A DNA stretch of 5,904 nucleotides from JALXCG01 sp026991065 [NCBI: Gemmatimonadota bacterium] (GTDB lineage Bacteria; GCA-2686955): contig JALXCG010000446.1 in NCBI GenBank assembly GCA_026991065.1, forward strand, positions 1-5,904. The letters run 5' to 3'. Shown here one piece after another: positions 408 to 5,449 of the stretch; the stretch's first letter is position 1; each line of letters begins with the position of its first letter. The notes below the pieces were generated by a model. The model saw nothing but the letters and a program-made list of their open reading frames with translations. It had not been told where the DNA came from and made no database searches. The translations under genes and the position numbers were made by a program.

Positions 408-1265
408 TCATATTGGGACGTCGATCTCCACCAGTTCTCCCGCACCCACCACCCTCTCTCCGCCCCCGCCATCGGCCAGGCGAAGGCAGCCATTGTGGTC
501 GATGCCTTGGACCCGCCCGACTACCGCGCCCGGACCGCTGCCGACCTCGACCCAGCGACCGAGATGATCGCAGCGGGCGTTCCAAGCCTCCACCAGCGGC
601 GCAAATCCATCCTGCAAAACCGTCGACCAGCGCGCCTCCAGAGCGGGGACTATTGCTGCAACCACCTCGCTCAGAGAGATGGGGCGCTGGGCGGCCAGCG
701 CCATGCTGCTGCTTCTTCGGCGCAGGCCTTGAGGGAAATCCTCGGCTCTGTGGCCAACATTGACACCGATTCCGATGACGATCCAGCGAATGCCCCCGCC
801 GCGCGTCTCTGCTTGCGCCAAGACTCCGGCGACCTTGCGGCCCTCAATCCGAACGTCGTTCGGCCACTTCACAGCTACACGTCCTTCACCCGACCCCGAG
901 TTGCCGCCGCCAAGCAGCGAATCCAAGGCCTCACAGAGCGCCAAGCCGGTAGCCGGACTCAGTGCACCGAGACCATCCGCCGGCCCTTCCGGGCGCAGAA
1001 TGAGCGAGCAGTAGAGCCCCAATCCGGGCGGAGAATCCCAAATCCGCGCATGTCGGCCCCGACCACGCGTCTGCTGCACAGCGGCAACGATAGCGCCATG
1101 CGGAGCGGGATCGGATGTCGCCCGAGCCCATTCCACCGCCACATCCATGGTGCTGGTTGCGCTCTCAAGAACCCGAGCCGGGCGTCCCAGGCGACGCGTT
1201 GCCAAGGCACCGAACGCGGCCCGCAACTGACCTGCTATTTCCTTAATGTCATGATCAGAATCCAT
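408..1265 (-). CDS. birA: Biotin--[acetyl-CoA-carboxylase] ligase (short, no HTH)
   Basis: This cytoplasmic enzyme activates biotin with ATP to biotinyl-5'-AMP and transfers it to the target lysine of biotin carboxyl carrier domains, such as acetyl-CoA carboxylase BCCP. The 285-aa product shows the family motifs in order: substrate-contact ATSTMD (36-41), the biotinyl-AMP-binding loop QQTRGRGRHARIW (64-76), KWPNDV (133-138), the catalytic-lysine motif GRKVAGVL (142-149, Lys144) and GIGVNV (165-170). A small C-terminal beta domain follows. About 30 residues precede the catalytic core, so the roughly 60-residue winged-helix repressor domain of E. coli BirA is absent. This is a class I ligase that should not bind operators itself. 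The ATG at 1265 has a purine-rich site (AGAGAGGGCGAGAG) directly upstream. A TTGACA-containing promoter lies about 60 nt upstream, overlapped by a palindrome. The common partner coaX is not visible next to it. Confidence 0.93.
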   Translation of the reverse strand: MDSDHDIKEIAGQLRAAFGALATRRLGRPARVLESATSTMDVAVEWARATSDPAPHGAIVAAVQQTRGRGRHARIWDSPPGLGLYCSLILRPEGPADGLGALSPATGLALCEALDSLLGGGNSGSGEGRVAVKWPNDVRIEGRKVAGVLAQAETRGGGIRWIVIGIGVNVGHRAEDFPQGLRRRSSSMALAAQRPISLSEVVAAIVPALEARWSTVLQDGFAPLVEAWNARCDHLGRWVEVGSGPGAVVGRVQGIDHNGCLRLADGGGGERVVGAGELVEIDVPI

Positions 1266-1514: not shown

Positions 1515-1564
1515 CCGCCACTCGTGAGACCGCCCGCGTGAGCGCGCGCCACGAGCATTTGAAA

Positions 1565-1570
1565 AGAGGT
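1565..1570 (+). promoter_or_regulatory. Ribosome binding site AGAGGT
   Basis: AGAGGT, preceded by further A residues, ends 5 nt before the ATG at 1576. It is a close match to AAGGAGGT at good spacing. This is the main evidence that the short frame that follows is translated. Confidence 0.6.
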
Positions 1571-1575
1571 CAACC

Positions 1576-1722
1576 ATGGGACTCGAATACTTCCTCCGCG
1601 CCATTACTGCCGACAACGACTCCGAGATGCTGCGCGTACTCGACGAATACGATGAAGTGCTGGAAACCGCGCGAGCACTGGAGAGCCTCTCGCGCGAAGA
1701 CGATATGGTAGCCGCCGGCTGA
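1576..1722 (+). CDS. Small acidic protein, 48 aa, unknown function
   Basis: An ATG to TGA frame of 48 codons, the only convincing plus-strand gene in the window. It has a well-placed AGAGGT site. Third positions are 34 of 48 G/C, like real genes here. The product has 13 Asp/Glu, 4 Arg, no Lys, Cys, Trp or Pro, so it is strongly negative. Hydrophobic residues recur at 3-4 spacing across residues 18-38 (M18, V21, L22, Y25, V28, L29, L35, L38), predicting one amphipathic helix able to dimerise or dock on a partner. There is no signal peptide or membrane segment. It is divergent from birA and convergent with the glycosyltransferase, stopping 33 nt before that gene's stop. A sigma-54-like promoter lies about 100 nt upstream. 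I do not recognise the family. Longer minus-strand frames over the same bases (1419-1766, 1604-2200) look like shadows. Confidence 0.6.
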   Translation: MGLEYFLRAITADNDSEMLRVLDEYDEVLETARALESLSREDDMVAAG

Positions 1723-1755: not shown

Positions 1756-2760
1756 TCAAACCGCACAGAGAAAATCCTCGCCCTCGACCAGGCCCAGCCG
1801 CTTCAACTCGCCGCGAACCACGTCTCTCTGCAGGCGTGCGCTTACCGCGGCGAGATAGAGCGCCCCACGAAATCGTAGAGCTTCGGCCGCATGAAGAACC
1901 GGGATGCCGTGGATCTTCTTGCCGATCTTGCGCGGGTTTAGATCGAGAAAGGCACTGAGCTGAACGCCGTGCCGCAAGAGCGCCCGCGCCAAAGGTTTTC
2001 CCACCACTCCGGCCCCCACGATGACCACCGAGCGACCTGTCTCCAGGGTCTTCGCCACATGCTCCGCCTTGAGGTCGATAAACCGTCGGCGCGCATACAT
2101 GGGGTGGGTCCGCGTGAGTCGCTCCTCGCGCTCGCGCCAGGCGTGCAACACCTGGGGTAGCTTCCGAAAACGGTAACCGCGGCGATGCATTCGCAGCCAC
2201 AAGTCGTAGTCCTCCGGAAACTCCCCCTGACGATAGCCCCCGACCTCAACCAGCGCACGCTTGCGCACCATCACGCTCGGGTGCACCACCGGACACTCGA
2301 TGAGGATCTCGCGGGCAACGCTCTCCGGCTCCAAAACCTGGTTTGACCAAGCCAGATACTCGCGCATGCCGCGACGAGTGGCCGAACGTGGAAACGAACG
2401 CACCCGACTTGCGACCACCGCCACCTCTCGTTCCCGTTCCAGCGCCTTGACCTGCAGTGCAAAACGGTCGCGATGGGTGATGTCATCGGCATCCATCCGT
2501 GCCACGAACTCAGCCCGCGACAGCGTGATCCCCTGGTTCAGCGCCGCCACGATCCCGCGCGGGGGTGTGTGGAAAACGCGGATCCTGGAGTCGTGCCGGG
2601 CATACTCCGCGGCCAAAGCTCCACTGCCGTCACGAGAGCCATCGTCAACGCAGATGATCTCCAACTCAACAAGGCTCTGCCGTTGTATCGAGCGTAGCGC
2701 GGCACCGAGGTGGGCAACGCAATCGCGGACCGGCAGAATGCAGGAAACTCGGGGAGTCAG
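1756..2760 (-). CDS. Family 2 glycosyltransferase with C-terminal Rossmann-like domain
   Basis: This likely cytoplasmic, nucleotide-sugar-dependent glycosyltransferase (GT-A fold) transfers a sugar to a glycan or lipid-linked acceptor for surface polysaccharide. The substrate cannot be predicted. Counting from the chosen start (334 aa), the GT2 domain runs from about residue 3 to 215: beta-strand VSCILPVRD, nucleotide-binding CVDDGS (37-42), the metal-binding motif MDADD (89-93) and the catalytic-base motif EDYDLWLR (183-190). From about 240 a second domain begins with VVIVGAGVVGKPLA, a glycine-rich nucleotide-binding turn (GAGVVG 249-254), followed by FLDLNPRKIGKKIHGIPVL. It resembles NAD-binding or PglD-N/CoA-binding-like folds. 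No membrane helix is seen. The frame opens further upstream (GTG 2862, GTG 2793), but the GT2 fold starts at once after CTG 2758-2760, which lies 7 nt behind a perfect GAGGAGG. I prefer CTG; GTG 2793 is the main alternative. Confidence 0.88.
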   Translation of the reverse strand: MTPRVSCILPVRDCVAHLGAALRSIQRQSLVELEIICVDDGSRDGSGALAAEYARHDSRIRVFHTPPRGIVAALNQGITLSRAEFVARMDADDITHRDRFALQVKALEREREVAVVASRVRSFPRSATRRGMREYLAWSNQVLEPESVAREILIECPVVHPSVMVRKRALVEVGGYRQGEFPEDYDLWLRMHRRGYRFRKLPQVLHAWREREERLTRTHPMYARRRFIDLKAEHVAKTLETGRSVVIVGAGVVGKPLARALLRHGVQLSAFLDLNPRKIGKKIHGIPVLHAAEALRFRGALYLAAVSARLQRDVVRGELKRLGLVEGEDFLCAV

Positions 2761-2767
2761 GACGCCG

Positions 2768-3228: not shown

Positions 3229-4164
3229 TTACTCATGCTCCGCCAAGTAGCGTTCCGCATCAATGGCTGCCATGCATCCGGAACCAGCCGCCGTAATCGC
3301 CTGTCGATAACGGGAGTCCGCCACATCCCCGGCCGCGAATACGCCCTCGACACTGGTATAGGAGGTCGCATTCATGGTCTTCAGGTAGCCCACCTCGTCC
3401 ATCTCCAGCACGCCCTTGAAGAGATCGGTGTTGGGCCGGTGGCCTATCGCAATGAAAAGGCCGTCCACCGCGAGTTCGCGTACCTCGCCGGTTTTCACGT
3501 TCCGCAGTTGAACACCGCGCACACCGCCCGCATCCGGCTCACCGAGAATATCGACGACCACTGAATCCCAGGCGAATTCAATCTTCTCATTCGCCAGGGC
3601 ACGCTCCTGCATGATCTTCGATCCACGCAGAGCATCGCGGCGGTGAATCAGTGTGACCTTGGAAGCGTAGCGGGTCAGGAAAAGAGCCTCTTCCAGCGCG
3701 GTGTCGCCACCGCCAACGATCGCCACCGCTTTGTCCCGGTAGAAAAACCCGTCACAGGTCGCGCAGGCGGAAACCCCCATCCCCATGAGCGTCTTCTCTT
3801 TTTCCAACCCAAGCAAGCGCGCGGTCGCGCCGGTTGCCACAATCACGGTGCGCGCCAACACGCTGCCCTGGTCGGTGGTGATGCGGAAGGGGCGTTGACT
3901 CAGATCCACAGCCGTAACCGTGTCGGGGTTCAGCTCGGTGCCGAAACGCTCTGCCTGTTTCCGAAAAAGCTCCATGAGTTGCGGCCCCATCACTCCCTCG
4001 GGAAAGCCCGGGTAGTTTTCCACATCGGTGGTGATGGTCAACTGCCCGCCGGGCTGCAGCCCTTCAAAAAGCAGCGGTTCCAGATTCGCCCGGGCAGCGT
4101 AGATCGCGGCGGTGTAGCCCGCCGGGCCGGAGCCGATAATGACGACGTTTTTTACTTCACTCAT
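3229..4164 (-). CDS. trxB: Thioredoxin reductase (NADPH, FAD)
   Basis: This cytoplasmic flavoenzyme passes electrons from NADPH through FAD and a redox disulfide to oxidised thioredoxin. The 311-aa product is close to the usual 310-320. Visible motifs are the N-terminal FAD-binding GSGPAGYTAAIYAARA (11-26), ENYPGFP (49-55), the redox centre CATC (Cys134, Cys137) followed by DG, the NADPH-binding GGGDTALEEA (151-160), HRR (174-176, contacts the NADPH 2'-phosphate) and the C-terminal FAD motif GVFAAGDV (274-281) with the RQAITAAGSG segment (287-296). The frame is open to 4302, but the extra 46 residues are low-complexity and the enzyme fold begins right after ATG 4162-4164. That ATG has GAGAGA a few bases upstream. 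The gene is complete. It stands apart from its neighbours: 344 nt from cysQ upstream and 468 nt from the glycosyltransferase downstream. No thioredoxin gene is in view. Confidence 0.96.
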   Translation of the reverse strand: MSEVKNVVIIGSGPAGYTAAIYAARANLEPLLFEGLQPGGQLTITTDVENYPGFPEGVMGPQLMELFRKQAERFGTELNPDTVTAVDLSQRPFRITTDQGSVLARTVIVATGATARLLGLEKEKTLMGMGVSACATCDGFFYRDKAVAIVGGGDTALEEALFLTRYASKVTLIHRRDALRGSKIMQERALANEKIEFAWDSVVVDILGEPDAGGVRGVQLRNVKTGEVRELAVDGLFIAIGHRPNTDLFKGVLEMDEVGYLKTMNATSYTSVEGVFAAGDVADSRYRQAITAAGSGCMAAIDAERYLAEHE

Positions 4165-4508: not shown

Positions 4509-5339
4509 TTAGAGATCATCATCGTCCAGCTCGCCTCGAATCGCCCGCACAGCGGCCTCGACCAGTTGATCATGAATCAGAGCATTGCTGGCCAGGACCC
4601 CGCGATGGTTGAGGACGTCGCGCACATTGTACTTCAGAGGTGCGCCGTAGCAATCGCTCATCTTGCCGCCGGCTTCCTCCAGGATCACTTGAGAGGCGCA
4701 GGTATCCCACGCCTTGGTGTGCCCCGAGGGATGAATATAGAAATCGCCACGCTGCTCCGCCACGAGGCCGACCTTCAGTCCTACCGAACCACAGGCGACC
4801 TCATTGCTGATTCCCAACAAGTACTGCACATCGTCGATCCGCGTGTCCCGGTGCGAGCGCGACACGACCATCAGCATCCTCTCCGGCGAGGAGATCTCCG
4901 AGACCCGCAATGGAGTTTCCTCTCCCCCCCGCTCGACCCACGCACCGCTTCCCCGCGCGGCCGAATAGAGCGAGTCGGAGACCGGATGATAGATCGCCCC
5001 AACCATCGGCTCGCCATCGATCGCTAAGCCGATCAGAACGCTGAACTCGCCGTTTCCGGCGCCAAACTCGCGGGTTCCATCCAGCGGATCGATCACCCAG
5101 CAGCGCGCGCACTGCAACCGCGCCACCGATTCCTTGGACTCTTCCGAGAGCAGAGCATCGGCAGGAAACGCCTGCGCAATGCCGTTGGCGATAATCTCGT
5201 ACGATGCCTGGTCGGCGGCCATCAAAGCACCAGCCATGGCATCATTCCCGTTCGCTGATGGATCGTAATGGGTAAGCAGGGCTTCTCCGGCACGCCGGGC
5301 AAGTGAACGCGCCAGTTCAAGTTCCGCACCTAGATTCAC
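4509..5339 (-). CDS. cysQ: 3'(2'),5'-bisphosphate nucleotidase, CysQ-like (IMPase fold)
   Basis: This Mg-dependent phosphatase of the inositol-monophosphatase superfamily most likely hydrolyses adenosine 3',5'-bisphosphate (PAP), the by-product of PAPS use, to AMP. From GTG 5337-5339 (276 aa) the metal-binding set is present: Asp43 in MAADQAS, LSEES (65-68, Glu66), VIDPLDGT (82-89, Asp84 and Asp87) and AWD (210-212, Asp212). GSVGLKVGLVAE (184-195) and the C-terminal YGAPLKYN with GVLASN favour CysQ over SuhB or HisN, but substrate cannot be settled by eye. Oddities: the usual T-x-x-D around Asp43 reads LMAAD, and the tail is acidic (ELDDDDL). The frame is open to GTG 5423. I prefer 5339 because AGGGGG lies 6 nt upstream and the family alignment begins there. 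The 5423 start would put the initiator next to a hairpin. A role alongside trxB in sulfur assimilation is inference. Confidence 0.8.
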   Translation of the reverse strand: MNLGAELELARSLARRAGEALLTHYDPSANGNDAMAGALMAADQASYEIIANGIAQAFPADALLSEESKESVARLQCARCWVIDPLDGTREFGAGNGEFSVLIGLAIDGEPMVGAIYHPVSDSLYSAARGSGAWVERGGEETPLRVSEISSPERMLMVVSRSHRDTRIDDVQYLLGISNEVACGSVGLKVGLVAEQRGDFYIHPSGHTKAWDTCASQVILEEAGGKMSDCYGAPLKYNVRDVLNHRGVLASNALIHDQLVEAAVRAIRGELDDDDL

Positions 5340-5345
5340 GACTGA

Positions 5346-5351
5346 CCCCCT
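5346..5351 (-). promoter_or_regulatory. RBS AGGGGG deciding the cysQ start
   Basis: AGGGGG on the minus strand is 6 nt upstream of GTG 5337-5339. The upstream alternative, GTG 5421-5423, is preceded by the stem ACCGGG rather than a purine-rich site. Confidence 0.5.
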
Positions 5352-5408
5352 GAACTGGGCCCATTGCGGCGCCCCAGATTCTCCCGGTTGCAAACACTGA
5401 TTCAACTG

Positions 5409-5449
5409 CTCACGCGTCACCACCCGGTGCGCTACCGGGCTGTCGTGAG
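5409..5449. repeat. Two-stage hairpin in the cysQ leader
   Basis: The inner stem CCCGGT (5423-5428) pairs with ACCGGG (5434-5439) around a 5-nt loop. The outer stem CTCACG (5409-5414) pairs with CGTGAG (5444-5449) across an asymmetric internal loop (8 and 4 nt). It lies 70-110 nt upstream of the preferred cysQ start and overlaps the alternative GTG at 5423, so it would hinder initiation there. No T-run follows it. Confidence 0.4.

Follow-up and report, generated by a model that had tools for sequence, protein, structure and literature searches.

Bacterial small proteins, the products of small open reading frames (smORFs or sORFs), are catalogued in GMSC (PMC11364881) and sORFdb (PMC11796252). 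The 48-residue protein analysed here resembles the catalogued proteins in having fewer than 100 codons and a function that is unknown. Its gene is intergenic, has its own ribosome-binding site and is limited to near relatives; unlike the catalogued proteins, its product has no family match in the libraries searched here, and it may already stand in GMSC or sORFdb. The gene lies in a 5,904-nt stretch of a Gemmatimonadota contig (JALXCG010000446.1), the whole of which we call the window, with the following features around it:

1563 to 1570, plus strand: ribosome-binding site AAAGAGGT, from the sequence and an ungapped DNA alignment with the related genome ARS67
1576 to 1722, plus strand: gene for the 48-aa small protein, ATG to TGA, from its homolog, codon log-odds and shuffle tests
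408 to 1265, minus strand: birA-like biotin ligase (PF03099, E 1.7e-18), divergent neighbour, in the window only
1756 to 2763, minus strand: GT2 glycosyltransferase (PF00535, E 3.6e-28 on the longer frame 1756-2862), convergent neighbour
3229 to 4164, minus strand: open reading frame of a trxB-like gene, conserved flank
4509 to 5423, minus strand: inositol monophosphatase (IMPase) family gene (PF00459, E 1.3e-53), conserved flank
1475 to 1518, no strand: 17-nt inverted repeat (82%, 10-nt loop), 57 nt 5′ of the small-gene start

The GTG start of the GT2 gene is inferred from its homolog, and the gene at 3229-4164 is presumably trxB, judging by its sequence.

Coding evidence for the 48-codon frame

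A preliminary description drawn from the letters alone had proposed this frame as an overlooked gene, and its account of the frame proved accurate: 48 aa from ATG to TGA at 1576-1722 on the plus strand, AGAGGT (1565-1570) spaced 5 nt from the ATG, G or C at 34/48 third codon positions, and a product with 13 acidic residues of 48 and no lysine (four residues are basic). The length of the frame is no evidence, since the GC-rich window holds 66 open reading frames of at least 40 aa, and third-position GC is by itself weak evidence of coding because its value of 0.71 lies near the 0.73 of five reference genes, in DNA of 0.62 overall GC. Stronger evidence comes from full codon log-odds, for which the training genes were the window's birA, GT2, trxB and IMPase together with rpoB of the same genome. 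The frame scores 0.395 per codon, above 63.5% of 457 true-gene windows, a value matched by just 0.58% of 3,644 open wrong-frame stretches and by 0 of 753 open intergenic stretches of the window; the stretches overlap in all three sets, and leave-one-out scoring was used for the true-gene and wrong-frame stretches.

The single other genome of the phylum in our search set, the metagenome-assembled genome Gemmatimonadetes bacterium ARS67 (G001), carries a homolog on contig NYZA01000171.1 (E 7.8e-10; 50 aa, L004:6001-6153), and each of the two genomes has one match to the small protein. Over residues 1-35 the proteins are identical at 22 of 35 positions and similar at 29 of 35; residues 1-10 (MGLEYFLRAI) are invariant and the C-terminal tails diverge past about residue 35. 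The ATG is conserved, and an ungapped DNA alignment places AAAGAGG at an equal distance, 6 nt, before both starts. Codon use is gene-like in both genomes, at 0.39 per codon in the window and 0.45 in ARS67, and the plus frame scores best of six in each. Because the only other genome of the phylum that was searched encodes the same protein in the same place, the 48-codon frame is almost certainly a genuine gene.

The selection tests compare one pair of sequences only, the window and ARS67, and yield rough dN/dS values: about 0.23 over codons 1-35 (pS 0.60, pN 0.23, dS 1.2) and about 0.42 over codons 1-46, alongside about 0.12 for GT2, 0.09 for trxB and 0.23 for IMPase, neighbours whose dS of 1.6 to 2.5 is near saturation. 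The BLOSUM score of 119 over 35 codons was equalled in 4 of 20,000 permutations of the alignment columns (P 0.0001 when columns were permuted within 15-nt blocks), and the score of 113 over 46 codons in none of 20,000 (P 0.0004 in blocks). Plain amino-acid identity gave permutation P values of 0.004 for 35 codons and 0.010 for 46, and in blocks 0.005 and a marginal 0.053, respectively. Read from this pair, the small protein is under purifying selection at the protein level, with conservative replacements above the column-shuffle null. Two genera thus share the frame together with its start, ribosome-binding site and position, under constraint on the protein. The proposal of a protein-coding gene is thus supported by the homolog, the conserved start, the codon log-odds and the selection tests; the check named in advance, which concerned relatives, the start, frameshifts and synonymous bias, came out in favour of a gene in ARS67, the sole related genome compared.

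Substitution positions of this kind have a mirror image on the other strand. Minus frame 1, open in the window as a 115-aa frame (1419-1766), shares its third positions with the plus frame, and 22 of 34 residues are identical there too; on this account the antisense frame would be the gene and the plus frame its shadow. Because of that identity, the substitution-position test cannot separate the two frames. Other evidence makes the antisense gene extremely improbable: in ARS67 minus frame 1 is interrupted inside the conserved block by a stop flanked by conserved stretches, its BLOSUM score is 81 against 119 for the plus frame, and its codon log-odds are -0.21 per codon in the window and -0.02 in ARS67. 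Conservation 5′ of the plus-strand ATG consists only of the ribosome-binding site and scattered pieces of matching DNA. The minus 0 frame has codon log-odds of 0.27 and 0.30, below those of the plus frame, yet is identical at only 14/35 positions and scores 59 by BLOSUM.

The conserved element might instead act as RNA or DNA, such as a regulatory leader or small RNA, with the frame incidental to it. Codons 2-10 are identical between window and ARS67 at 7 of 9 positions where 3.7 are expected (P 0.02), and an inverted repeat is present 5′ of the gene. Against these stand the substitutions, which are distributed as in a protein, and the RNA of 1480-1640, which folds no better than shuffled sequence (z +1.62; 194 of 200 shuffles fold as well). 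Rfam gives no match at gathering thresholds, and the window has no known same-strand gene 3′ of the small frame that could be a regulatory target. We consider an RNA or DNA element with an incidental frame very unlikely.

The identity of codons 2-10 (1579-1605) may reflect an early-codon or RNA constraint. A leader peptide acting in attenuation was considered and rejected: in the window, the minus strand carries the genes that come next, and in ARS67 the frame that follows on the same strand is one of 57 aa. The inverted repeat at 1475-1518 has a folding energy of -19.8 kcal/mol, which 8 of 200 shuffles of 1470-1525 equal, and could possibly be a terminator or an operator. A search for terminator-like sites returned one, at 1490-1507, against 1.1 expected in shuffles. 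The corresponding DNA of ARS67 has just a 10-nt palindrome, folding no better than shuffles (96 of 200), and a second copy of the repeat was found in neither genome. Likewise rejected was the idea that the upstream DNA belongs to a repeat family, as it has no second copy and its other matches have E values of 0.41 or worse. The interval 1200-1900 yielded no sigma-70-type promoter.

Neighbourhood and distribution

The order GT2-trxB-IMPase, convergent to the small gene, is common to the window and ARS67, with protein identities of 63% for GT2, 74% for trxB and 56% for IMPase. The left flank differs: where the window has birA, ARS67 has a gene for a 692-aa protein with a weak TPR match (L004:3697-5775), and the 40 kb examined of the 44-kb ARS67 contig show nothing that matches birA convincingly (best E 0.013). 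The preliminary description had stressed that the small gene is divergent from birA, which is true of the window and does not extend to ARS67. Because the left flank differs in ARS67 and lacks a convincing birA, the adjacency, judged from these two loci, is a local accident and not a link.

The GT2 gene has features of its own. The C-terminal part of its product weakly resembles CoA-binding, Rossmann-like domains (PF02629, E 0.0007, below the cut-off), and three genomes of another phylum have matches of 43-44% identity that extend over nearly the whole of GT2. Two genomes of that phylum have a repeat-rich-looking gene (L017:271-1545 and L015:236-1528) that is convergent to GT2 and overlaps its end; these genes and the 692-aa gene of ARS67 may be related.

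In ARS67 a putative 57-aa frame with two hydrophobic stretches (L004:6178-6351) starts 24 nt past the stop of the homolog, and it is the best candidate for a partner of the small protein in that genome. The small protein and a small membrane protein could then be translation-coupled partners, such as a soluble regulator and its membrane target, and the window genome would have lost or moved the second gene. The 57-aa frame has no family match, and no convincing homolog (best E 0.17) in the 84%-complete window genome. Such a two-gene arrangement is an unlikely account of the protein, although less so than an antisense gene or a conserved RNA.

A profile built from the two sequences matched 2 of 386 genomes at E <= 0.001, the window genome and ARS67, both of this phylum, and gave no match in the other 384. 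With the same profile, 0 of 8 genomes of the phylum nearest by rpoB identity matched at E <= 0.01, as did 0 of 5 of the next phylum; 5 of these 13 genomes are already among the 386, and these nearby-phylum searches held no positive genome, the profile having found both positives elsewhere. A match in genome G076 (E 0.005, 38% identity over 34 aa within a 489-aa open frame) was set aside as chance and is absent with the two-row profile. Searches of plasmids with the window protein and of phages with the ARS67 protein returned no relative, and among viral contigs 49 pattern matches gave 0 confirmed. A scan of contigs with exact 8-residue patterns, by which diverged copies would be missed, found ARS67 alone.

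We also followed the neighbouring GT2 gene, which has homologs at E <= 1e-30 in 4 of 23 genomes of other phyla tested. In these four loci (L015-L018) tblastn found no small protein at E <= 1, and the frames beside GT2 in three of them (L018, cut at a contig end, was left out) include none resembling it; the three neighbourhoods without an equivalent frame belong to the second-nearest phylum by rpoB.

Family searches gave a corresponding picture. Pfam, NCBIfam and PHROGs hold no family match for the small protein (best E 0.082, to a PHROG of unknown function, with the ARS67 protein), and PDB sequences no significant match (best E 1.1). The best Pfam match, TPR_CHK1 (PF25503; 26 residues, E 0.14, 11.9 bits against a cut-off of 27), and the best NCBIfam match, DnaD_dom (TIGR01446; 38 residues, E 0.15, 12.3 bits against a cut-off of 24.95), are at chance level.

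Predicted fold and proposed role

AlphaFold2, run on the two-row alignment of the window and ARS67 proteins, models two helices at modest confidence (mean pLDDT 78.7, pTM 0.44). On the DNA these correspond to:

1579 to 1611, plus strand: predicted amphipathic N-terminal helix, codons 2-12, from the model, the alignment and the hydrophobic moment
1618 to 1716, plus strand: predicted long second helix, codons 15-47, from the model; conservation reaches about residue 35, and the tail beyond it varies

The protein is thus predicted to form a short amphipathic helix followed by a long one. A Foldseek search of the PDB with the model gave nothing significant (best E 6.6). The hydrophobic moment of helix 1 (residues 2-12) is matched by 128 of 20,000 shuffles of the window protein and 184 of 20,000 of the ARS67 protein, whereas that of residues 18-38 is matched by 4,800 and 3,486 of 20,000, respectively. 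In both proteins helix 1 is thus more amphipathic than shuffling would produce. The heptad-like pattern that the preliminary description had seen over residues 18-38 is no stronger than chance would give. We accordingly discarded a heptad or coiled-coil docking peptide, the periodicity of helix 2 lying within chance in both proteins as measured by the hydrophobic moment at 100 degrees, which is not a coiled-coil predictor.

The same description had suggested, from an acidic and lysine-free composition, a regulator, an anti-sigma-like docking peptide or a nucleic-acid mimic. The window protein does have 13 acidic residues in 48 and no lysine. In the ARS67 homolog 10 residues are acidic and 6 basic, with one lysine among the latter, so that the strong negative charge is not kept (13 acidic and 4 basic against 10 and 6). 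Nor did searches of Pfam, NCBIfam, PHROGs and PDB sequences give a significant match that would speak for a mimic or anti-sigma-like peptide. Because the charge differs in ARS67 and the periodicity of helix 2 is within chance, readings built on mimicry or on charge-based docking lose their basis: acidity, freedom from lysine and the heptad are all unsupported as conserved traits. An acidic mimic or anti-sigma-like peptide is accordingly highly improbable.

Our leading explanation, which we hold tentatively and at slightly under an even chance, is that the gene encodes a genuine single-copy, lineage-restricted small helical-hairpin protein of 48-50 aa that docks through helix 1 on one conserved partner. 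The hydrophobic face of helix 1 (L3, F6, L7 and I10), invariant between the two proteins, would be the working surface, and the partner could be a protein or a membrane face. The long helix would set orientation or oligomerization and leave the variable tail free. The small gene would be transcribed alone in the window genome and together with the 57-aa frame in ARS67, and its product would serve as a small accessory or regulatory subunit. We attach modest confidence to a docking or accessory role. A bolder version, and an improbable one, is that the two proteins are the first described pair of a phylum-specific family whose invariant helix 1 docks on and tunes a core machine, for example RNA polymerase, the ribosome or the adjoining GT2.

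The protein looks like a further example of something familiar, a small protein confined to its lineage, and not like a novel type of system, and by itself it opens no new mechanism. A hunch from raw sequence has become a supported gene that passes tests named beforehand, in a phylum with two genomes examined. The protein is a phylum-restricted addition to the known small proteins, and its invariant residues are clear.
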